A stretch of 64,000 nt of DNA, from NCBI RefSeq assembly GCF_000001735.4, contig NC_003071.7:10347151-10411150 (forward strand), written 5' to 3'. Shown in pieces: positions 5,640-64,000 of this stretch. This DNA is from Arabidopsis thaliana. Its lineage: Eukaryota; Streptophyta; Magnoliopsida; Brassicales; Brassicaceae. The notes beneath the pieces are model-generated. The model searched no databases. It saw only the letters and a list, made by a program, of their open reading frames with translations, and had not been told where the DNA came from. A program made the position numbers and the translations under genes. Every line of letters begins with the position of its first letter. Position 1 is the first letter of the stretch.

Positions 5640-7990
5640 TTCTTACCTATTAATGATTACAATATAATATGATCACTTTCAAATTTTTTACCAAATATCA
5701 AAACCCAACCAAAGAAATGTAACCAAATAACTTTTACTTTCTCTTACACAGTTCGATGATTCACACATCCTACTGTTCTTCGATGCCATCATGACTCTAA
5801 TGGTTTACAACAACAACATTATCCTCTCTAAGAAAAACAACCACACTTCATTTTCTAAATCTCTCGGATTCCAAAACTTCAGACGCTTTTTATGGTGATT
5901 TAGTCACAATTTTCTCGAAAATTGACAGTTCTTCCAAATTTTACCTTATTTTATTTATTTTCATAAAAGGGCACATTATCCATTTACACAACTCATACAG
6001 ATGATTACAATAACTTAATTCCACAATTTTACCAGTCCAAGCCCATTTATTAAAACCCATCTCACATACCCAGTAATCAAAACCTAACAAAGGAAACCTA
6101 GCTAAAGATATTTATACCCTCGTTTCACACATCTCAGACTTTTTATCGCCGCGGCCGTAAACATACATCAACAATGATCTATTCTCTCAAAAAAATCACC
6201 ACACTCTATGTTCAAGAAATCCTAGATTCCAAAAATCCAGACGTTTATCATGATGGTTAAGTCATATCTTCCACATTTACACTTTTCAAAGATTGACTAT
6301 GCTTTTACTACATTACTGACAGGTAATTCTCCAATTGACTCCACAATCATATTTATAGGGGTATTAATGAGAATTGGATTTAGATAGAGTTGATTGATTT
6401 TAAAATTTGATAGATTTGTTAAATTTTTCAAGAGCCTTGTTAAATTTGCAGGAAGTATCACCACACTCTGTCTTCAAGAACTCCTAGATTCCAAAAATCC
6501 AAACGCTTGTCATGGTGGTTTAGTCATATCTTCCATCTTTATCCTTTTAAAAGGTTGGCAATGCTTCTATCACATTAATGACATGTATATTCTACAGGGA
6601 GTATCACATTAATGACAAGTATATTCTATCACATTAATGATAGTTAATTTTGCAGGGAGTATCACCACATCCGTCTTCAAGAACTCCTAGATCCAAAAAT
6701 CCAGACGCTTGTCATGATGGTTTAATCATATCTTCCACCCTTACACTTTTCGAAGGTTGGTAATGCTTGTACCATATTCATGACAGGTAATTTTACAATG
6801 GTATCCACAATCATATTTAGAAAGGGTGTTAATGAGAATTAGATTTAGATTGAGTTGATTGATTTAAAAAGTTGATAGATTTGTGAAAATTTCAAAAGTC
6901 TTGTTAAATTTGCAGGGAGTATCACCACATTCTGTCTTCAAGAACTCTTAGATCCAAAAATCCAGACGCTTGTTATGATGGTTTAATCATATCTTCCACC
7001 TTTACACTTTTCAAAGATTGGTAATGCTTCTACCACATTTATGACAGGTAATTCTACAATTGTATCCACATTCATATTTAAAAGGGATGTTAATGGGAAT
7101 TGGATTTAGATAAAGTTGATTGATTTAAGAAGTCGATAGATTTGCTAAATTTTGCAAAAGTCTTGTTAAGTTTTCAGGGAGTTTTGGGAATTGAGAATCT
7201 CTAAAAGAATTATGTTGTAAAGATTTTAAGAGTTCTATCTATATCCATAATATATTACAATTTGTGTGTTTATAAGTTAAATTGTTAGGAATTCATTTAC
7301 TAGTAACACTAGATTGAAATTAAATTATATAGTATCAATGAAAACCAAAAATTTTAATAATGTACAATACATTTTGAATAGAATTTAAAAATAATCATAC
7401 CCATAACCATAACAATGGATTTATAGAGAATATGAGAATCCATAAACCAATATATAAGAATAGAATCTAATCTTTAAATTTCCATCTCTCAATAACCCAC
7501 CCACCCCTTCCCTGACGAGCTATCCTTTCATATAAATTTTACGTATAATTATAATCATACGTATTCAGTTCCACACTTTCACCCATCTACGCCTAATTAT
7601 TAAAACTAATCTCACTTGTCCAATCATTAAAATCCAACCAAAGAACCATAACCAAATAAGTTTTTTACCTTCACTTATACACATTTCTGACTACTTTTCA
7701 CTGCCATCGTGACTATGACGTCAACAACGTCCTCCCCTCGCAAAATTACTACACTCGATTTTCAAAATCTTTTGGATTCCAAAATTCCAGATGCTTCTTA
7801 TGATGGTTTAATCAGCTTCACAGAGATTGGCAACACTTTTACATCATTCCTTGAATATCTAAAATGAAGAAACATCATCATCACCAATTTAATGAGTTAT
7901 CCTTACCCAGTTATTAAAACTCATCTCACATGCCCAATGATCAAATCAAACAAAAAAAACTAGCTAACGAAAAATTTATCTTCTCTATCA
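5640..7990 (+). repeat. Decayed tandem array of a short-ORF unit
   Basis: A block reading about tcaccacactctgtcttcaa followed by a gattccaaaaatccagacgc phrase recurs near 5850, 6200, 6460, 6665, 6925 and 7745. The core units join at a gcaggga/agtatcac boundary at about 6448, 6652 and 6914 (spacing about 204 and 262 bp), and the last ends near 7177. Three units also contain a ttgattgatttt-type stretch (about 6355-6450, 6830-6915, 7080-7180) resembling Harbinger-type MITE debris. A promoter-like leader (about catctcacatgcccaatgat) recurs near 5700, 6060, 7610 and 7920. The best preserved unit holds the 50-residue ORF at 7715-7867. I do not recognise the family. Confidence 0.7.
7715..7867 (+). 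CDS. Unknown 50-residue ORF, best copy in the tandem array
   Basis: An ATG at 7715 opens 50 codons and a TGA. The peptide begins MTSTTSSPRKITTLDFQNLL and continues DSKIPDASYDG then a mixed tail ending FLEYLK. Sister copies in the array keep the same core in other units: one starting near 6174 reads MIYSLKKITTL then LDSKNPDV before an early stop, and one inside 6394-6612 reads ITTLCLQELLDSKNPN. The repeated reading frame suggests an old coding exon. It has no signal peptide or known motif. It may be a terminal fragment of a lost gene rather than a working peptide gene. Confidence 0.3.
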   Translation: MTSTTSSPRKITTLDFQNLLDSKIPDASYDGLISFTEIGNTFTSFLEYLK

Positions 7991-8494
7991 CCCATCTCTG
8001 GCTATTTTTTTAAGAAGAAAAGGTGGCTAGTAAAAACTTCATCCAAAAGTGTTATTTTGTCTGTACCTAGCAATAGATTTACATCCAAGCTAGGATTAAG
8101 TTTCCGACATAACAGAGAGAAAAATAAACGTATTTCACGATGATGTTTTGACAAAGATCATGCAATTACCAACATAGCAACCACGTTTAATGGAAATTTC
8201 TTACATTTATTATAGATTGCATAGCAAAGAAATTGCTAATAAGTACCATCAGGAAGATACAACTGGTTGTTCCAGCAATTCAACTTGAATCTTCATTTTC
8301 TTGTTCTCGTTCATCATCAACATCATTCTTTTTTTCTTTGCAACAACTATATAAACTTAAAAAATTCCTTATAGGAACCGCTTAGACATGACAAGTAGAT
8401 GTTTTTTTTGTTTTTTTGTATAACAAAGATGTTTCGAGCCTAGGTCCGTATATCCCTTCAAGCCAGGGATTATCGCATTTTATATGGATCCCTC

Positions 8495-9540
8495 TCAAGT
8501 ATTACTGGAACCGACAAATAGATACTTCTTACTTGCTAATGTGATATGTCTCACCTCCAAAAGTACGATCATTCCATATAGTGAAGTATTAACCATCACA
8601 TGAATCCTTACACTGCCTTCCAAATCAACAATGTAGAGCGACTTTCCCTGCTTTGAACGTGTATCTAAGTCTCGGTTTTCCAAGATTCTGAAAGAGAATA
8701 CATATGAATATATTTCATAAAACCATATATCACATAGTAATAATCAAATTAAAGAAGAAAAAACATTGGTAATTGTAGTCATGTATTGCTTACCTTTTGA
8801 CTTCGTTAGGATCAGTATAATACTCGCCTTCCCCCACAAAGTTGCTAGAGAAAACTTGATCCAGAAGATTCCAATGTGTTATCCAATGAATGAAACTGCT
8901 ATCCATTGTAGCACACTTATAGTGTCTGCATAAAGGTTCAATGTCTTCGTCTACTTTTGTTTTTACACCTGAAGTAGTCGCTCCAATCTTAAGCCCACTC
9001 TCATTTGCATTGCTTGCACCTCCCAAATTGGTGAAAGTTATCATCAAATTATTAAGATTCTCATCATTGTTAAAAGCATTTTTGTTATCCAAATTCATAA
9101 ACTCATAGTAGAACCCCTTCATGGCTTCATCATCATATATCAACTCTCCTAGGTCTGCCTAGCCACAACTTGAGTCCCTAACCAACAGATCTAATAGCTG
9201 AAAGTAGCTTGATCCCGAAGAATTTTGAGAGGTCATCGAATGGATCCCAATAATATCAGTGTTGGTCCGTTTATGAGACTTTTTCGGCGGTAGAGTGTTA
9301 ATGATGGTTTTAGACTTAGTGCCCAGAACCCAAGGAGGCATTGGAGAACAGTTTTGGTTAAACCTAAAGGAAGAGTCTTCATTCTCCACATAAGTTGATG
9401 GAGAAGTGTACATCTACAAGATAGAATTAGGACAGACTAACACCAGATATGAGCTCACCAACAGAATAGAAGAGAAGACATGCGACGGTCGAGTCATCGA
9501 TTGTGGTCTGTGTGGTTAGATTGCAGAAATGAATCTTGAT
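8495..9540 (-). pseudogene. Decayed group-I-like bZIP gene, copy 1 (locus A, left arm)
   Basis: Pieces on the minus strand are an N-terminal block at 9159-9413 (ends DSSCG), a middle block at 8790-9143 (LGELIYDD-type start, TTSGV in the middle, ends EYYTDPNEVKR) and a last exon at 8495-8683 (NRDLDTRSKQGKSLYIVDLE). A 'DPNEVKR' end spliced to 'NRD..RSKQ.KS.YIVDLE' is the basic region and start of a leucine zipper as in plant group I bZIPs (DPK..RRILANR.SAARSKERK). The zipper degenerates at once into VRHITLAS. An in-frame stop follows DSSCG, just before LGEL, so this copy is broken. It matches my memory of a locus annotated as a sequence-specific DNA-binding factor (AT2G24340) and of small bZIPs such as bZIP31/33. 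Confidence 0.72.
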
Positions 9541-10002
9541 GGTTGAGTAGAGCTCACCGGCACCAATGGATTATGGAACAAAGATGATGAAGGAATTATT
9601 TGGGAAAGTTGGAGAAGATATGCTACGACTAAGTAGTCCACTGTGGTCTAAGGCTGAAATGCGGTGACCAGACTAGAAAACATGTCAATGGTGGTCCTTG
9701 TGAAAGGGTTGACAAAGAAGTCTAGGGAGACGGTGACACGTCGGATCTCTGGCCTATGTGAGTGCTAAAACAATTATGGTATTGGTTGCTTAAAGGTGTC
9801 ATATTGCCACTACGACTTTGAGAATGGTGAATGGTTGTGGCAATATGACTTTAAGCAGCCAATAATATAATCTTTTTAGCACTGATGGTGGCTAGAGAAC
9901 CGGCATGCCACTGTCTCCGTAGATTTTTTTTGTCAACCCTTTTGCAAGTCCCACCATTGATCAATTTTCCGAGCGGGTCACCGTATTTTAGCCTCAGACC
10001 AC

Positions 10003-11130
10003 GGTGGACTACTCAGTCTTTGCCTACCATCTCCAACTTTTTCGAATAAGCCTTTCATCGTCTTCATTCCATAATTTGAAGGTGCCAGTGAGTTTCAATT
10101 GTTGTCGTTCATTTTTTGCAATCCAACCAAGGATCAAAGTCGATGACTCAGTTGTCGCATGTCTTCTCCTCTATTCCGCTGTGAGCTCATCTCCGATGTT
10201 AATATGTCCTAATTTTTTCCTGTCGATACTTCTCCATCAACATATGTGGAGACCGAAGACTCTTCTTTTAGGTTTAACCAAAACTGTTCACCATTGCCTT
10301 TTTGGGTTCATGTCACTAGGTCTAAATCCATAAGCAACACTCTACCGACGAGAAAGTTTCATAAATAGACTGACACTAATATCATTGGGATCCATTCGAT
10401 AACCCGTCAGAATTCTCCGGGATCAAGCTACCTTCAGCTATTAGGTCTTGTTGTTGGGGACTCAAGTCGTGGCTCAGAAGGCCTTGGAGAGTTGATATAT
10501 GATGATGAAACCATGAAGGGGTTCGATTATGAGTTTGGATAACAATAATGATTCTAACGATGATGAAATCCTTAATAGTTTGTTGATAACTTTTACCAAT
10601 TTGGACGGTGCAAGCAATTTGAATGAGAGCAGATTTAAGACTAGATCAACTACTTCAGGTGTAATAAGGAAAGCAGGTAAAGACATTCTATGCAGCCTTT
10701 ATAGGAGTGCTTCAGTGGATACAGTTTCATTGACTAGATAAAGCATTGGAATCTTCTGGGTCAAGTGTTTTTTAGCAATTTCGTTGGGAAAGGCGAGTAT
10801 TATACCGATACTAATGGAGTCAAAAGGTACGCAATACGTGACTACATTTACCAATGTTTTTTTTCTTTAATTTTTATTATTACCATGTGATATGGTTTTA
10901 TGACATTTATTCATATGTATGCTCATTCGGAATCTTGGCAAATCGAGACTCAGCTGCACGTTCGAAGCACATAATGTCGTGGTACGTTGTTGATTTGGAA
11001 CGTAGAGTCGAGATTCTTGAGATGACAAATACCACTATATGGAATGACCGCATTTTTTGAGGTGAAACATATCAGATTAGCAAGTAACAACCATCTATTT
11101 GTCGGTACTTGTGAGGGAACAATAGAAAAT
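10003..11130 (+). pseudogene. Decayed group-I-like bZIP gene, copy 2 (locus A, right arm)
   Basis: This is the plus-strand mirror of copy 1. The N-terminal block lies at about 10230-10490, the middle block at 10490-10740 (LGELIYDDE, then NSLLITFTNLDGASN and TTSGV) and the bZIP exon at about 10935-11065 (NRDSAARSK, WYVVDLERRVEIL). This copy keeps the basic region better than copy 1 (NRDSAARSK is close to canonical NRxSAARSK). Frameshifts separate the blocks and the zipper ends early after WNDRIF. It is a host-type gene fossil, not an intact factor. Confidence 0.7.
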
Positions 11131-11639
11131 ATGTTAGTCCTTGGCCTGAACTGATAAATGTTGAGAATTAATATTAATATATTAATTTGTTGTTTATGTG
11201 ATTTTTCTTTCTTTTCATTTTTATGCAGGAAGAAAAATTTGCAATTCAACGATTTCGAGCGATGTAAACTATCTAAAATTGTTTGAAGCGAATTTTAATT
11301 AAAATTTTTTATGATTGGTTTTAAATGCTTACAACCGCAACATCGCTTTTTAAAAGATAACGTTTGAGGGTAGTAGCGGGAGAACCGATAAGCGTATCGT
11401 ATATGGACATTGTTGGTGAGAGGTAGAGGTTCTTGAGATATGGGGTTTTAAAGATTGTCTATTGGTTGATAAAGATCAACAATCATTTTGATTATTTGTC
11501 GTGATAATTTGGATTTATATATGAAAGAAAAAGAGTAATATGTAAACATATAGCATGTGTGTGAGTAGAGTTTTTCTTAAGAATATTGTTTTAGTAATAT
11601 TTGATTAATCGGTGAGTTTGTATATCACTATATTGAACC

Positions 11640-11860
11640 GAGCATGTTAATATAGTTAGAATGTAGTTTTGAAAATATATAAAGTTTAGAAAACATATAC
11701 CTAGTGAATCTTACGAAATATAAATTAGTTTAGAAACCTATCATTTGGAAACCATAAACCTACCGCCGTAATTTCGTGGCTGCTTTTGGAGGATTGTAGT
11801 TTAAGTTACTATGTTGTCGTGGCACAGCCTAAAACCCCAATACCTTCTCTAACAAGGAAA
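11640..11860 (+). repeat. Outer flank shared with locus B (inverted)
   Basis: About 220 bp here, including gtggctgcttttggaggatt and ending ataccttctctaacaaggaa, is the reverse complement, diverged, of 58640-58860. It therefore belongs to the same repeated unit as the bZIP arms and marks how far that unit extends. The shared edge at 11860/58640 may be the true end of an element, but no clear terminal repeat or target duplication is visible. Confidence 0.65.
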
Positions 11861-14088
11861 AAATGCACTTATCACAATGTTTTAGTATAAAAAGTTAATA
11901 AATACACAAAAATGTTAAAATACTAAATAACTAACCAAAAAAAAAATTTGGTTCTTGCGTAAAATGTGTGCTTGGTTTTATTTGCTGGATTAGATAAATT
12001 TAAAGTAACTCATTTATTGCAAACCATTCGAAAATCAAGAAAATGTTTTCACTCTTCGTTAATATGTTTTAATCTCTCTTCTTTCTCATCCGTTAATCTT
12101 CCTACCAAACCTAATTAAGAACCAGAGATTTTGCAAACTTGTCTGAGATTCAAAATTGAATTTGAAACACGAGTGAAAAATATGCGTTCAATGGTTACAA
12201 AAAAACTGAAATGTGTAAACGAAATAAATATTTTTATATTTTGTTTAAAGACTGAGTAAGTTCACAGTCACACTTGTGTTTTCTTCCGCATTGTTCAATT
12301 TTTTAATCATCTTTTTTGGGTGTGAAAACTAATAATTAGTTAGGGTAACTGAAAACTCACTTGGAGAAACTCCTTTGCAGGATAACTAATAGTCATGCCT
12401 ACCTAAGCGTGGATACTATCGGGGTGATCAGCCTATACAGTTTTTACACTCCCTACATATCAAGAACGTCAATTCACCGAATAAGATTCAATGATTTGTG
12501 TTGGCTTACAAAATATGAAGCCACGTTGAGGTTTTGAATCTTTATAAAGCCACGTTGAGGTTTTAAATCTTATATGTATATGATCCATCAATCTTGTGGA
12601 ATCCTATCTTTTTGGAAGACGAAGCTTCAATCATGTTTCACTTCCTTACTCTTTCGTTGATAGGCTCATGATTAAAAACAGGACTCATGACATATTTTGA
12701 ACAACAAAAATATATATAACTACTACACGTTTGCTTCAGGTGTATTTCATATCCACTACAAGAAATATCGATATTGTTATTGTGTTTTTTTCCAAAAGTA
12801 TTAGCACTTCACTAAATATTTTTGGGCTAAGTATTGGTGGAATAAGTGATTTTCGCTTCCCGCTTAGTGATATTTTATCTTAGCGTTGTTTTAATGCTAT
12901 TATACAATAACTAAAATAAAATTTTATTTTTCCGATAATTTAATTTGAATGGTGTTTTGGTGGGAAAAAAAAAATCATTTTTCATAGCAGTTATAGAAAA
13001 TGAGCTATCTTGGTGTTCTATCAATGTATATAATTGTTATAGTGATATTAAAAAAGAGTTAAAACCTAAAGATTGAAGACTCATTTCAGTCAACACTTGG
13101 ATCTCTCTCACCTTGCATATAGGCGAGAGTGTCGTATCTTTTACTTCCTTGGTACATCTCAAGGGCCTATTACTTTAAAATCACCAGCACGTTAGGAAGA
13201 TCTTGTCATGGTTCCAACGTTAAAACAAAGTGATACCATTTTAGAGAAGATATTTGCAATACTCCTAAGACCAAAGCAACTAGTAAAGAACTTTTAATAA
13301 ATAGAGATCGGAGTGGTGAACAAAAACTTATGTATTATGTGTAGATGATTCAAGGCAAAAATTTACCCGGGATTTTCCACTGAGACTTCGCTTGATGATC
13401 CACATAATCTGATCCTTCTCTTTAGCCCTCCCATATGGTCACTTCTGGTATATCTAGTATTTTATCATTGTATTGAGCATGCTGAAAAAAAAAACACGAA
13501 AGAAGAGTAAAATAAATTAAGAAGATCATACAGTTGAATTAGGAGAGAAAACATATAACTAATCACCCCAAAAAAAAAGAAGGAAAGGAGAAGCACCTAT
13601 GTATCTCTGATCTCTCTATGGATTTATACTTTAGTTAACCCTCATTATAAAAATTGATTGATTACTAAATTTTATTTTATTTTTCAGTGGTAAGATAAAT
13701 ATGTTGACAACAAATGAAATAAGATATTGCAGGTTAAATTAACCAAAATGAAGTAAGATATTGCAGGTTAATTTAAAAGTTTGGTTAATTACCAAAAAAA
13801 AACTCCTTTTGATAGTAAAATACTCGCTATTATCTTTTGTTCGTCAAGATGTTTAATTAAAGCTTTTTAATCAAAATCTTTTAAAACCTGATTAAAAACG
13901 CTACTCCAAAATAATTAATGTGCGAGGGAAAGAAATGGGCCTTTAATAACAGAAATAGCACTGTGTTCATTTTTTGTCGTTTTCTCAAAAGCTGCTTAGT
14001 TCCGACGAATCCTCCGCACAAATTCACCGGCGACGAGCGAAATTTCGAGAATCGCGGCGACTAGAAGTACAAGGATAGTGATACGAAG
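11861..14088. other. AT-rich spacer with CACTA-like debris
   Basis: No gene is visible. It contains a 28-29 bp direct duplication at about 12517-12575 (aagccacgttgaggtttt twice), a CACTA-like end at 12754, and from about 13700 to 13800 a short repeated phrase (aagatattgcaggtta twice). 13980-14088 is GC-richer and is likely the 5' UTR of the RRM gene. Confidence 0.45.
12754..13044. mobile_element. CACTA (En/Spm)-like non-autonomous element, decayed
   Basis: The left end CACTACAAGAAAT is the classic plant CACTA terminus. The right end is weaker: ttgttatagtg at 13034-13044 reads CACTATAACAA on the other strand. The 291 bp between them has no coding sequence. I cannot confirm a 3 bp target duplication, so the right limit is tentative. 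Confidence 0.45.
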
Positions 14089-20734: not shown

Positions 20735-22240
20735 CGGAGTTCGATCCAAATTTGTCATACATGTCAGAGGTTGATATGTTTCTGTAAAGTTAGTTGTTTG
20801 AAAATAAGAAATAACACGTGTGAGAAATTTCATTCGACGGTTTCACTTACATTAAATTCGTTTCATCTTCTTTTGTCTCTTTTCCCAAAAGTTATGATGT
20901 AAATGCTCCAAATTTGTCATACATGTCTAAGAATGATATGTTCCCTTACAGTTAACTGATTGTTCCTAGGAATTAACACAAAAATTTTGTACTTTAAGGT
21001 TTCCCTAGCATTAAGTATCATCTTAATCTCGTTTTTGGTTTCTTCTCTCCCAATAGTTAAGACGCAAATACTCAACAATCTATTGTACATGTCAAAGAAT
21101 GATCAGTACCTTGAAAGTCAGTTAATTGTTCACAAGAAAAACATGTGTCAAGAATTTCATTCTACGGTTTCCTTGTAACACAAATGCTACAAATCCGGTA
21201 TACATGTTAGAGATTGATATGTTCCCTTAAAGCCAATTCTTTCTTTGTAGGAAACAAGTTGTGTAAATAACTTTGCTCGATGTTTTCCTTGAATCAAGTA
21301 TTCTCTTGATATCCATTTGTATGTTCTTTTCTAGAACTGAAAACGTAATTACTCAAAATATCGTACATGTCAGAGATCGATCTGTTTCATTTATATCAGT
21401 TATTTTACTAGGAATGAAATAACACGTTTAGAGAATTTCCCTATACGGTTTTCCTTGCATTAAGTTCGATTGATCTTCTTTTGTCTCTTTTCTCCTAAAA
21501 GCAAACAACGCAAATACTCCAAATTTGTCGTATATATATCAAAGATTGATATGTACATGTCCGAGATTGATATGTTCCCTTAAAGTTAATTGATTGTTCA
21601 CAAAAAATTACATGTGTGACAAACTTCACTTTAAAGTTTCTCTTGCATTAAATATTCTATTAATCTCCATTTGTCGGGTTTCTTGGGTTTCTTCAAATAG
21701 TTTAGGCGCAAATGCTCCAACTCTACCGTACACAGTTGATTGTTCACAAGAAAAACAAGTGTCAAGAATTTCACTCGACGGTTTCCTTGTGTTATACTCC
21801 CTCTGTTCCTAAAAGTTTGATGTTTTGAGTTTTTTTCTTGTTTCACAAAGATTGATGTTCTACATCAACATCATTATTATTCTTATTCTTTGACCAATAA
21901 AAAGAGGAGAGAAATATAGTTAATATTATTAAACTAACAAAATAATAATATTAAAATGTAAAAGTTGGTTTTCTTAATTTGGATGAAAATCCCACAACAT
22001 CAAATTTGGTGGAACAGAGGGAGTATATATTTTTCTTCGATTGTCTCTATCTTCCAGATTATAAACCCAAATGCTTCAAATCTGGCATACATGTTAGCGA
22101 TTGATATGTTCCCTTAAAGCCAATTGTTTGTTTGTGGGAAACAAGCTGTGTGAATAACTTCGTTTGACGATGTTCCTTGAATCAAGTATTCTCTTGATAT
22201 CCATTTGTATATTCTTAATTGATCAAAATATTGTACATAA
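20735..22240 (+). repeat. Satellite-like array of about 165 bp units
   Basis: A phrase of the form aaatttgtcatacatgt..gattgatatgttccc recurs near 20749, 20910, 21079, 21191, 21357, 21521, 21721, 22078 and 22227. Spacing is mostly 161-169 bp, with one short step of 112 and one interval lengthened by an inserted MITE. Other conserved parts of the unit are ttcacaagaaaaacaagtgt, ttcattcgacggtttccttg and a cattaagtatt..ttaatctc phrase. Units are diverged, so the array is old. It is not the 178 bp centromere satellite. No family name is recognised. Confidence 0.8.
21797..22023. mobile_element. Stowaway (Tc1/mariner) MITE, 227 bp, with TA duplication
   Basis: The terminal inverted repeats are about 26 bp: CTCCCTCTGTTCC at the left and its complement GGAACAGAGGGAG at the right, extending inward to a matched TTTGATG/CATCAAA. 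TA lies directly outside both ends (21795-21796 and 22024-22025). CTCCCTCYGTTYC with TA is the Stowaway signature. It is inserted inside the 165 bp array and looks whole. Confidence 0.9.
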
Positions 22241-58307: not shown

Positions 58308-59351
58308 TATACTGATTTTTACTCAAAAACATTTTTCTGATTATAGCCACTTTCACATCTCAGATTCTTGGATTTTGTAGGAAGATTAATGGATTAGAAA
58401 AAACAAAGAGTTAAAACATTTTGTTGATCTTTGAGCAGTCGCTCACGTCACCAATTCTTATGAAAATTTAAATAGTTTGCAATAAGTAAGATACTTTAAA
58501 TTTATTTACTCTTGCAAATAAAACCAAGCACACATTTACACAAGGTTCAAGATTTTGTTGTTGTTGGTTATCTAGTATTTTAACATTTTGGTGTATTTAT
58601 TAACCTTTATATACTACAAATTTGTAACAATGTATTTTTTCCCCTTCTAAGAGAAGGTATTGCGGGTTTAGGTTGTGCCATGACAGCATAGCAACTAATC
58701 TAGACAATCCTCCAAAAGCTGCCACGAAATCATGGCGGTAGGTTTATGGTTTCCAAATGATAGGTTTCTAAACTAATTTATATTTCTTAAGATTCACTAG
58801 GTATATGTTTTCTAAACTTTATATATTTTCAAAACTACACGATAACTATATCAGTCCAATATAGTAATATACAACTCACCTTTTAATCAAATACTAAAAC
58901 ACAATTCCTAAGAAAAACTCAACCCATACACATGCCAATGTTTACATATTACTCTTTTTTCTTTCATAAATCCATATTATCACGACCAATATTCAGATGC
59001 CTGTTGATTCTTAATATAATATCAACAAATATACAGTTAACATTCTTAAAACGTCCCAAACGGCTCCTCCTCTAGTATACACGAATCTGGCTGATTCTTT
59101 ATGGCTGTTTTGTCTTCGTTGACGTAAAAGGAGCTTGTGAAAATAGACAATCTCGACATACTATTCTCCTATTCCCTTCCATTACTAATACATCCATAAA
59201 TACACAATATTACTAATAAATCCACAAATATCCACAATATTTGAAATCGTCGAATTTTAAAATCTCCATTCACCATAAAAAGAAAGAGAAAAATCATTTA
59301 AACAACAAATAAATAAATATACTATTACCAAATCACACACACACCCACACA

Positions 59352-59943
59352 TCCCCTTATTATTAAAAAGGAAGTACAAATTGAAATTTTGTCTAATTTG
59401 GTCTCAATTTTGATTTCAATTTTGGATTTTCTTCTTTGCTGTTCAAAATCATTAAGGGTAATTTGGTCTTAACAATCTTCTAAACTTTATATGATCTGAT
59501 TGAATCTAAACCGTTCAATAAAATTAATTCCCTTCAATCTAAACCGTTCAACAAAAATAAGTGAAATAATTTTATTTTTTTATCTTCACTTTAAAAACAT
59601 ATAATTATAAATAACATATGGTCTTTATTTTGCCAAAAAAGTGTATAACCTGTCAAATAGTTAAAAAAACACTTATAATCATAAAAAAATATTATACCAA
59701 TTTTGTGAATCTTACATTTTTGTAAATATTTTACTTTCACTAAAATTACATACACATTTTTAAACACATTTTAACACATTTCTCTTATCACTAAATAACA
59801 ACCAAAAAAATCCCAATTATTATTTAGTTATGTTTGATTAAAAAGTTTATATTTATAAATTTAAGATATCAAATTCATTTAAATATTTAGTATAAGAACC
59901 AAATAAACCGATTGCCCGCGGTAAACCGCGGGTTAAATCCTAG
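59352..59943 (+). mobile_element. Non-autonomous Helitron, 592 bp
   Basis: The left end is TCCCCTTATTATTAAAAAGG after an A. The right end has the hairpin cccgcggtaaaccgcggg, then ttaaatcCTAG and a T. This is a textbook Helitron terminus. There is no coding capacity. It sits inside the left arm of locus B and so is younger than that arm. Confidence 0.85.
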
Positions 59944-60390
59944 TATGTATATATATATATATATATACATATTTATTTATCTACATTAAATGTAAATTAA
60001 TGTTAATTCTCAAATTATTTACCCCTCCATACTAGGGACTAGCATATTTTATATGGTTTTTTCTCAAATGCCACTCTAAGTGACAAGTAGATGGTTGTTA
60101 CTTCTATTGTGATATGTCTCACCTTCAAAAGCGCAGTCGTTTCAAATTGAATAATGAAGTATAAGACATCTCAAGAATCTCTACTTTGCGTTCCAAATCA
60201 ACAATATACCGTAAATTACTCTATTTTGAATGTGTAGTTGAGTCTCAGTATGCCAAAATTTTGAATGAGCATCCATATGAATAAATATATAAAACCATAC
60301 ATTACATAATAATAATAAAAGTTAAGGAAGAAAAAACATTGGTAATTTTAGTCACATATTGCTTACCTTTGGACTCTATTAGGATCAGTA

Positions 60391-61345
60391 TGATGCAAGA
60401 CTCGATGGTAGGCCTTGTATTAAATAGAGATGGTGGCTTCACAAATTGGCATTCGCTCTATTTTGTGAATGATTGATGGTCGATGATGTAGAACTGACAC
60501 GATGGCGGCCGCTGCTCTTGTGTGGGATCAAATGGAAGGGATGTGTTGGTGGAGTGAAGTGCACTACAAATATGTGATTGATCTCTGATACAGTACTCAA
60601 CCTTGGTGAATAACACACACAAGACAAAGAACAAGCTTACTCTCTCAATAACACTTAAAGAGAATAAGTAAGAAAATGCGGCTTCTTTGTTAAGGGTGAA
60701 AATTCGTACAATTGTTGAAGAGGGACTTTATAAGAGTCCTTCAGCTAGCCCTAAGGCCAAAAAATAAATGCATAAACACAATAAGGAAACAAATAAAAGC
60801 AAAACACAAAAACGATTATTTTTAGAAAGAAAAGAAACTAAATAAGGAAACTACTTAAACTTTCTTGAGGAGCACGTTTGATAACGATTCTAGCCGTTTG
60901 TGGGATGTTTGGACCTGCAAAGTAAAATTGAATAAACCTTACATGGATGTGATTTAGGCCTAGTAGATGTCTTTTGAGTCACTTCTTGTAGATTTCGTTG
61001 AGATACTTCTGAAATCACGTCTTGTGCTCGTTTGCTGGTCGGTTCCTTGAAGTAAAGGTATTTCTAGAGTCCCTCTTGAGTAGCTTGATCAATGTCTTCG
61101 AGCTCTTCCACGTCCTTGATGTCTTGGTCTTGATCTTGAATCTCATTATCACTCTTGGATGTGGAGCTTATATTGCACGTCTCTTGCAGCTCCAAAGTCT
61201 TCTCTTTTTTTTTTTTTCATTCATAATTTTCCATTAGAAATCCAAAGTCTTCTCTTGGCTTCTAGAGGCTTCTAAACCTGTCAAATGAGATTTCATACTT
61301 AGGGGAGTAGTTCGTTCAAGACTTATTTGGGAGAATGCTTCAGCA
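60391..61345 (-). mobile_element. LTR-retrotransposon fragment (Copia-like), fossil
   Basis: This insertion is about 950 bp inside bZIP copy 3. Read on minus it looks like most of one LTR followed, near 60590, by a primer-binding-like tgtatcagag and then a leader region. There is no gag or pol coding. It is a broken remnant; the family assignment is tentative and the age is younger than the bZIP duplication. Confidence 0.4.
61191..61256. mobile_element. Very short retroposed insertion with 16 bp target duplication
   Basis: tccaaagtcttctctt at 61191-61206 is repeated at 61241-61256. Between them are 34 bases: an 11-base T run and cattcataattttccattag plus aaa. On minus this is a 23-base body with a poly(A) tail flanked by a perfect duplication, as left by LINE machinery acting on a heavily truncated RNA. 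Confidence 0.75.
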
Positions 61346-62109
61346 AGCTCTTCCTCGGCTATAGGAAACGTGACTCGGTAGATTCCAAAGCTTTATCCAG
61401 TCAATGAAACTAGTATCCACTGAAGCACTCTTATAAAGTCTGCATAAAGGTCTAATGTCTTTACCTGCTTTTCTTTTTAAACCTGAAGTAGTCGATCTAG
61501 TCATAAGCCCGCTCTCATTCACATTGCATGCACCTTCTGAATTGGTAAAGTTTACCATAATATTACTAACATTCCACCATCGTGAGAAGCATTATTGTAA
61601 TAAAGATTCATTAACTAAGAGTAGAACCCCTTCATGACTTCGACATCATATGTCAACTCTCTAAGGCCGTCCTAGATACGCTTGATTCCCCTACCATCAC
61701 ACTTAATAGCTTAGGTTAGTTTGATCCAAGAAAACTATGATGGGTCATCAAATTAATCCCAAGGCTATTAGCGTCATTCCGTTTATGAGACTATCTCGAC
61801 GGCGGAGTGTTGCAGATAGAGTTAGACCAAAATCAGATGATGCAATGGAGAACATTTTTGATTAAACCCAAAGAATGTGTATGTGTCCTCTACATGTGTT
61901 GATGGAATAGTGTACGTCGGCAGGATAGAATTGCGACAGACTGACACCGAAGATGAGCTCCTCGATGGAATAAAAGAGAAGATATGCAGTAGTTGAGTAA
62001 TTGAATGTGGTCTGTAGTTGGAGTGCGGGAATGAATCATGATGGATGAGTAAAGCTTACCGGCGCCAATGAATTATGGAACGAAGACGATGAATTAGTAG
62101 AGCTTACCT

Positions 62110-63290
62110 TCATCATCGTCGTTCCATAACTCAATGGCTCTGTTGATCTTTACTCATCTTTCGTGATTCATTTCTGCACTCCAAATACAAACCATGATCA
62201 ATGACTCAACCATCCATGTCTATTACTCTATTTTTCCGGTGAGCTCATCTCCATCGTTAGTCCGTCATAATTCTATCCCATTGAAGTACACTTCTCCATC
62301 AGCACATGTGGAGAACATAGACTCTTCCTATGGGTTTTAACAAAATCCGCTCTCCATTGCCTCATTGGGTTCTGGTCACTAGGTCTAACTCCATCTATAA
62401 CACTATACTGCCGAGAAAGTCTAATAAACGGACCAACACTGATATCATCAGGATCAATGCGATGTCCCCTCAGAGTTCTCCGAATCAAGTTACCCTGAGT
62501 CATTAGGCATGTTGGTTGGGGACTCCAGTTGTGGCTATGAATGCCTTGGAGAGTTGATATATGATGATAAAGCCATGAAGGGATTCTACTCTAAGTTCAT
62601 GAATCTCCATAATATTAATACTTCGAATGATGAGGAGAATGTTAATAATTTGTTAATAACATTTACCAATTCGAGACGTGCAAGCAATGCGAATGAGAGC
62701 GAGTTTAAAATTGGATCGACTACTTCAGGTGTAAAACAAAAGGCAGAAAATGACATTAAACCTTTATGCAAGCTTTATAAGAGTGCTTTAGTGGATACTA
62801 CTTTCATTGACTGGATAAAGCGCTGAAATCTTTTGGGTTAAGTTTTTTCTAGCAATTTTGTTGGGAAAAGAAAGTATTATACTGATCTTAAGAGGGTTAA
62901 ATGTAAGCAATACATGACTACACTTACCAATGTTTAATTATTATACAATTATGTAATGTATAGTTTTGCGACATTTATTCATATGGATGCTCATTCAGAA
63001 TCTTGGCAAACCAAGACTCAGCTGCACGTTAAAGCAAAGAAAGCCGCAATACGTTGTTGAATTGGAGAGCATAGTAGATATTTTTGCGATGGCTAATACA
63101 TTAGCAAGTAGTAAGTTTGGAACATATCACAATGTAGCAAGTTTGGAACCGAAAAGTAGATGGTTAGTGTTTAGAATGACTGTGCTGTTTGAGGTTAAAC
63201 ATATCATATTAGCAAGTAGTAACCATCTACTTTTCGATTCGAATGACACTTTGGAGGGAACCATATAAAATGTGATGGTCTTTGGCTTGA
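62110..63290 (+). pseudogene. Decayed bZIP gene, copy 4 (locus B, right arm)
   Basis: The coding core at 62509-62826 reads VGDSSCGYECLGELIYDDKA, then MKGFYSKFMNL, LLITFTNSRRASNANES, TTSGVKQKAENDIKPLC and TFIDWIKR. The bZIP exon lies at about 62990-63270 (NLGKPRLS then YVVELESIVDIFAMANT, VKHIILASSNHLLFDSND). The basic region is worn and the frame breaks between exons. A duplicated stretch of about 60 bases inside the last exon (agcaagta..atggtta twice, 63103-63230) is peculiar to this copy. Confidence 0.68.
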
Positions 63291-63470
63291 AAAATTAAGC
63301 GTGGTCGTTATGTTGGTATGTGATTTTTTTATGCAGTAAGAAGATTTTGAAATTCAGTGATTTGGAGCGATGTAAAATGGTCTAAAATGGTTTGAACGAT
63401 TTTATGATTGATTTTAACGTTTGAGGATAGTAGCGGTAGAATCAATCAAGCGTGTTGTATATGGAAATGG

Positions 63471-64000
63471 TTGGTGATATTCTTAGTAACTAATGTTTTT
63501 GATTTGTGGATTATAACAATCTCTATAGATCTATTGACATCGCTCTCCATCTTTTTATAAATATTTTGTACTATTAAAATCAAGCAATTCTATCTAGCTA
63601 AATCCAACTCTCATTTTCATAAAGAAACAAAAAAAATGATATGAATATAGAATTCTTAAATTTTAAGAATAAATTCTTGCATATATTTATGAATTTCTAA
63701 AACTCCCTCATATTAAAGGAAACTCTTCAAAGTTTTAACAAATCTCTTCACTCTTAAGAGATAGAGTTTTAAAGATTGTTAGATTTCTTAGTATCTAATG
63801 TTATTGATTTATTGTTTCTCACAATCTTCATAAATCTACTGTAGTCTCTCTCCATTCTTTATAAATCTCTATACTCAAAAAATCAAGCAACTCTAACTAA
63901 ACCTAACTCCTACTTAACACCCCCTTCCCTAAATTTGATTGTAATTGTAGAAAAGTGAAAGTTTACATGTAATTAAAATACTAGGAATGTTTCCAATCTC
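63471..64000. repeat. Two tandem copies of a Harbinger/PIF-like MITE fragment
   Basis: About 150 bases starting ttagtaactaatgtttttga at 63475 recur, diverged, from about 63791 (ttagtatctaatgttattga); both run to aaatcaagcaa.tct. The second ends aacaccccc near 63915-63923, complementary to the GGGGGTGTT start of Arabidopsis Harbinger-type MITEs. The same material is seen within the tandem array near 6355, 6830 and 7080. Limits are uncertain because the window ends. Confidence 0.4.

Follow-up and report, generated by a model that had tools for sequence, protein, structure and literature searches.

A decayed, probably old inverted duplication of a bZIP gene in Arabidopsis thaliana with the potential to form a long hairpin

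Introduction

Allen et al. in 2004 reportedly proposed that gene-derived inverted duplications are founders of MIRNA genes. The same role is given to such duplications in passages of three papers (PMC1790633, PMC5388894 and PMC3237417) and, according to passages of two of these, MIR163 captured part of its founder promoter (PMC5388894, PMC1790633). Two endogenous long inverted repeats of Arabidopsis, IR71 and IR2039, show enrichment of the 21-nt class and heavy methylation in every context according to a passage of PMC5910406.

Here we describe an inverted repeat (locus 1), spanning C2:10,355,601-10,358,306, in a window of 64,000 nucleotides of Arabidopsis thaliana DNA that extends over C2:10,347,151-10,411,150. 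Like the founders described in these passages it consists of inverted protein-coding gene sequence, is capable of forming a hairpin and corresponds to a large, early stage; it differs from them in that its arms are longer than 1.3 kb and decayed and, in contrast to MIR163, do not carry the promoter end of the gene. It also resembles IR71 and IR2039, as portrayed in that passage, in being a genomic inverted repeat able to fold into a hairpin. Locus 1 adds a further case to the gene-derived inverted duplications, one that lacks the founder promoter, and we do not class it as a MIRNA gene or as an siRNA locus. Its significance is modest: it is a well-bounded and datable promoterless example with a second inverted duplication about 49 kb away, and it therefore lends itself to comparison with what the inverted-duplication model assumes for the origin of MIRNA genes. 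Locus 1 is probably AtbZIP71 (AT2G24340), as judged from gene order; if this placement is right, the gene should be excluded from the working transcription factors in family surveys.

Results and Discussion

Structure of the palindrome at locus 1

When the window was compared with itself using BLASTN, locus 1 was recovered as a single inverted match at 8451-11156 (78.5% identity over 2756 columns, 2230 bits), whereas 20 dinucleotide shuffles of the window gave inverted matches to themselves of at most 43.7 bits. The two arms are thus long, contiguous and in opposite orientation beyond what is expected by chance, and they are homologous to a gene that was copied as DNA with its intron kept (Table 1). 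The arm-to-arm alignment that the preliminary description had proposed as a check was continuous and near end to end (MAFFT, 1079 of 1341 aligned bases identical, 80.5%). Identity per 100-column bin was 70.5%-87.5% in bins 1-13 and 76.6% over 77 aligned bases in bin 14 at the outer end, and the arms are therefore not scattered short blocks. The claim in that description that a decayed bZIP gene is present here as an inverted duplicate was accordingly borne out, and its short loop near 9822 corresponds to 20 nt (9814-9833) enclosed at the tip by 16-nt arms (9798-9813 and 9834-9849); the size and extent given for the arms (about 1.4 kb, 8440-11270) had to be corrected to about 1.33-1.36 kb with ends at 8451 and about 11156.

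Table 1. Features of the two palindromes and their surroundings (positions in the window).
Feature	Position	Strand	Remark
Locus 1 arm A, bZIP pseudogene, without promoter end	8451..9813	-	Gene sense on minus strand
Locus 1 loop, 20 nt between arms	9814..9833	.	
Locus 1 arm B, bZIP pseudogene, splice acceptor AG lost	9834..11156	+	Gene sense on plus strand
Arm B continuation past palindrome	11181..11419	+	Matched by locus 2 arm B in pieces 11042-11295 and 11358-11419
Flank X of locus 1	11456..12028	+	Also found next to locus 2, there inverted
Flank X beside locus 2	58471..59035	-	
Locus 2 arm A, outer piece	59993..60394	-	
Repeat of about 963 bp inserted into locus 2 arm A	60395..61357	.	LTR-like on inspection by eye; 13 further matches, 8 of them nearly full-length
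Locus 2 arm A, inner piece	61358..62100	-	
Locus 2 arm B	62101..63477	+	

That a long hairpin could form if the locus were transcribed, as had been suggested, is supported by RNA folding of the inner 831 nt (9400-10230), which gave -467.9 kcal/mol against a mean of -227.0 for 20 shuffles (z = -29). At locus 1, perfect pairing runs of 24 and 23 nt were present, and at locus 2 one of 25 nt; the inner part of locus 2 still folds well (z = -21).

Relatives and decay of the arms

An intact bZIP gene on the minus strand at C2:9.097 Mb (L026), which we take to be AtbZIP74 (AT2G21235), matches most of the arms by summed extent. Its four matching pieces with locus 1 arm B include positions 6-217 (67%) and 1000-1281 (72%), and a gapped five-sequence alignment of this gene and the four arms of the two loci runs from exon 1 across the intron into exon 2. 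The likeness of the arms to the bZIP74-like gene thus extends through both exons and the retained intron; they are unlike it in their stops and frame breaks, in having no 5' end and in an extra stretch of about 176-198 bp, which is common to the four arms and parts of which match genes of a bZIP cluster at C2 5.29-5.50 Mb. On their inner side, both arms of locus 1 begin at about codon 9-12 of the L026 frame, and neither arm therefore has the start or the promoter.

The genes of the 5.29-5.50 Mb cluster, presumably UNE4, bZIP31 and bZIP33, resemble the arms chiefly near exon 2, besides a small number of short matching blocks. Across the exon-2 region (about 290 columns) identity of the arms was 66-72% with the bZIP74-like gene and 61-71% with the six cluster genes, and in an exon-2 tree the four arms group together with support 98. 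Given that this tree has no outside root and that the best single matching piece for locus 1 arm A is with the cluster gene L024 (123 bits, compared with 109 bits for L026), a position of the arms as sister of bZIP74 is not proven. Several deletions are common to all four arms, and one proto-gene behind all of them would be the simplest reading. Inverted repeats also occur near bZIP genes at C2 5.3-5.4 Mb (L021:603-1052, 77%; L024:487-1034, 69%), outside the stretches matching the arms. In passages of two family studies, AtbZIP71 and AtbZIP74 are placed apart from that study's two subgroups (PMC4122391) and no B. napus homologue of either gene is listed (PMC5664138).

Stops interrupt each of the four arms in every reading frame (12 of 12 readings, 14 to 45 stops in each), frame-breaking indels are present in all four arms and the splice acceptor AG of locus 1 arm B is gone. 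An open frame through the basic region and zipper, as in a functional group I bZIP gene, was absent, and Pfam detected no family in the two given ORFs, neither of which covers the basic region. The differences between the locus 1 arms had no coding bias (0.206/0.214/0.178 for codon positions one to three), while those between the B arms of the two loci (0.216/0.252/0.315) and between the locus 2 arms (0.253/0.263/0.312) were highest at the third position; these figures are rough, since the frame was projected through a gapped alignment. Given the third-position excess in some arm pairs, coding constraint may have existed at some time.

We consider it most probable (roughly 0.75) that locus 1 is an old inverted duplication of a group I-type bZIP gene that is decayed and silent or weakly read through. 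Two copies of the intron-containing gene would have been joined head to head inside the first codons, probably by fold-back or template-switch repair, a joint that would have removed the start and promoter, and both arms would then have decayed into pseudogenes. Since the centre, which lies within coding sequence, has no promoter of its own, the locus is expected to be silent or to give low-level read-through. Since the arms lack start and promoter, a hairpin RNA would need transcription from outside, which could yield a long, imperfectly paired hairpin open to cutting by Dicer-like enzymes. That a hairpin is used or kept is not shown by anything in the sequence, and the locus has the appearance of an old duplication in decay, not of a functioning silencing gene.

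The second palindrome

The second such locus claimed for the window in the preliminary description is real: a palindrome of the same gene is located at 59993-63477, about 49 kb away and corresponding to C2:10,407,143-10,410,627, although a repeat of about 963 bp interrupts its arm A. Its centre sits 227 bp deeper in the gene than that of locus 1, and both of its arms end at the same point. Arm divergence was 0.222 at locus 1 and 0.319 at locus 2, while arm identity across the loci was 76-78%. At a substitution rate of 7×10−9 per site and year these divergences correspond to about 16 and 23 My, respectively, and at 1.5×10−8 to 7 and 11 My.

It is possible, though doubtful, that one ancestral palindrome was copied whole to both loci by local spread, that locus 2 subsequently lost 227 bp to the left and to the right of its centre and that later arm-to-arm conversion made the arms alike within each locus. 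The common stopping point of the two locus 2 arms would fit such a history, as would the presence of flank X beside both loci in opposite orientation. The centres of the two loci differ, however, and the quartet site patterns of the four arms favoured pairing within loci (28 sites) over the two cross pairings (13 and 17). In the AU test the cross pairing of the two A arms gave p = 0.037, against copying, and that of locus 1 arm A with locus 2 arm B gave p = 0.059, which together with the near-star form of the tree is compatible with it. Within-locus pairing was ahead in four of six stretches of the four-arm alignment and not in the other two. The four-arm tests were limited to the 1066 of 1582 alignment columns in which every arm has a base, so that the inner 227 bp of locus 1 is left out of them. 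When the bZIP74-like gene was added (five-sequence tree, 878 columns), the locus 1 arms grouped with support 99 and the locus 2 arms formed no clade (53), which argues against a copied palindrome and indicates that the arms of locus 2 may predate locus 1. Overall, this comparison mildly favours separate inversions at the two loci, or early conversion.

It had also been suggested that the inverted form itself spreads. A genome search with arm A covered 119,662,809 bases in 7 contigs, with counts that are lower bounds, and among the matches listed palindromic partners occurred at these two loci only. No inverted gene copy was found in the seven other bZIP stretches examined, and the best tree mildly pairs the arms within each locus; spread of the inverted form was thus not supported.

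Flank X is identical between the loci at 471 of 554 aligned bases (85%), above the cross-locus arm identity, and elsewhere in the genome search only a 105-bp fragment on C5 was found. This likeness may stem from later duplication, conversion or constraint. By eye, the ends of the stretch between flank X and locus 2 (59354-59945) resemble those of a small Helitron, and the loop of locus 2 (62094-62106) resembles a short stretch of arm A a few dozen bases off, in a template-switch-like manner.

Pairing, targeting and methylation

An active long hairpin locus or proto-MIRNA would have an outside promoter, a transcript through the centre, cutting by Dicer-like enzymes and small RNAs acting on the locus itself and on bZIP74. 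We regard this as unlikely, although the strong fold and the long perfect runs at both loci are what such a locus would have. The arms lack the gene's promoter end, about 20% of positions mismatch between the locus 1 arms, and arm A of locus 2 is broken by its insertion. In a test of the pairing itself, G.U exceeded A.C at locus 1 (93 versus 67), which is marginally in favour (p = 0.048), but there was no signal at locus 2 (92 versus 88, p = 0.82), and these two tests together give no consistent support for selection to keep pairing. The hairpin or siRNA role put forward in the preliminary description was therefore not supported, given arms without the gene's promoter end and a pairing test that was marginal or null.

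Antisense 21-mers were scored against the mRNA of the bZIP74-like gene, a sequence pieced together in this analysis. An Allen score of ≤4 was reached by 22/1363 and 28/1448 21-mers from arms A and B of locus 1 and by 4/1125 and 57/1283 from arms A and B of locus 2, compared with 0 in all four shuffled arms. Against L024, a bZIP31/33-type gene, the corresponding numbers were 15/1363, 3/1448, 1/1125 and 3/1283. Five 21-mers had at most one mismatch to the bZIP74-like gene (three at an exon-intron edge, one in the intron and one in exon 1). A residual capacity against bZIP74, as predicted from these scores, exists and would favour an active hairpin, whereas there appears to be little capacity against L024, the single cluster gene tested. 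The expectation of small RNAs against the bZIP31/33-like family thus found no support in this gene; in naming that family the description is not in error, in view of the exon-2 identity to the cluster genes given above.

C-to-T decay was raised at CG (22/119) and CHG (17/140) relative to CHH (63/912). The CG/CHH ratio was 1.85 at locus 1 and 1.87 at locus 2, and the CHG/CHH ratio 1.46 and 1.62; 15 other bZIP pairs, several of which (those with L025) align at only 61-63%, ranged over 1.14-3.60 and 0.88-1.91, respectively. One duplicate pair in the window had lower ratios (1.34 and 1.15) and four pairs of the repeat inserted in locus 2 had higher CHG/CHH ratios (1.97-2.24). Given that the arm ratios lie within the range of the 15 bZIP pairs, they were not taken as a methylation scar that would prove siRNA action. 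The CpG observed/expected ratio was uninformative. Rfam at gathering score detected only a tRNA in the whole window.

The RT-PCR reports on AtbZIP71 conflict, and they bear on locus 1 if AT2G24340 is, as is probable, this locus. According to passages of PMC6161759, AT2G24340 has a predicted 24-nt intron and gave an RT-PCR product equal to genomic DNA, which speaks against an active hairpin; the authors were "unable to judge" the case and took most of the 48 genes for which introns this small are predicted to be pseudogenes. A passage of PMC4122391 reports a partial AtbZIP71 cDNA fragment amplified from seedling RNA, which is in favour of an active hairpin and indicates that some transcription may exist (the conflict is thus between PMC4122391 and PMC6161759). 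The main-text passages on AT2G24340/AtbZIP71 that we searched make no mention of small RNAs.

It would be more improbable still that both palindromes, though old, are active promoterless hairpins read from neighbouring transcription, giving small RNAs against each other and the bZIP74-like gene, and that a proto-MIRNA stage has lasted many My.

Other explanations and neighbouring sequences

A foldback or Mutator-like transposon with a captured bZIP gene would account for long inverted arms at two loci, but several dispersed copies with defined ends were not seen: only two loci are present among the matches listed in the genome search, and homology between them runs past the palindrome edge, so that this origin is scarcely credible. 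Least probable of all is a working head-to-head bZIP pair with a shared promoter, which the divergent arrangement and the annotation of AtbZIP71, if rightly placed here, might suggest; it is contradicted by the centre within coding sequence and the Pfam result, and is refuted for the present sequence by the stops in all frames.

Locus 1, in our preferred reading an old and decayed inverted duplication, has a tandem array directly to its left (6195-7182), with 2.1 copies of a 261-bp unit at 6643-7182 and diverged copies spread between 5691 and 8007. Elsewhere, the window contains kinase, fasciclin, RING, C2H2 and F-box-associated matches, and diverged direct repeats of several hundred bases each are located at 20745-22216.
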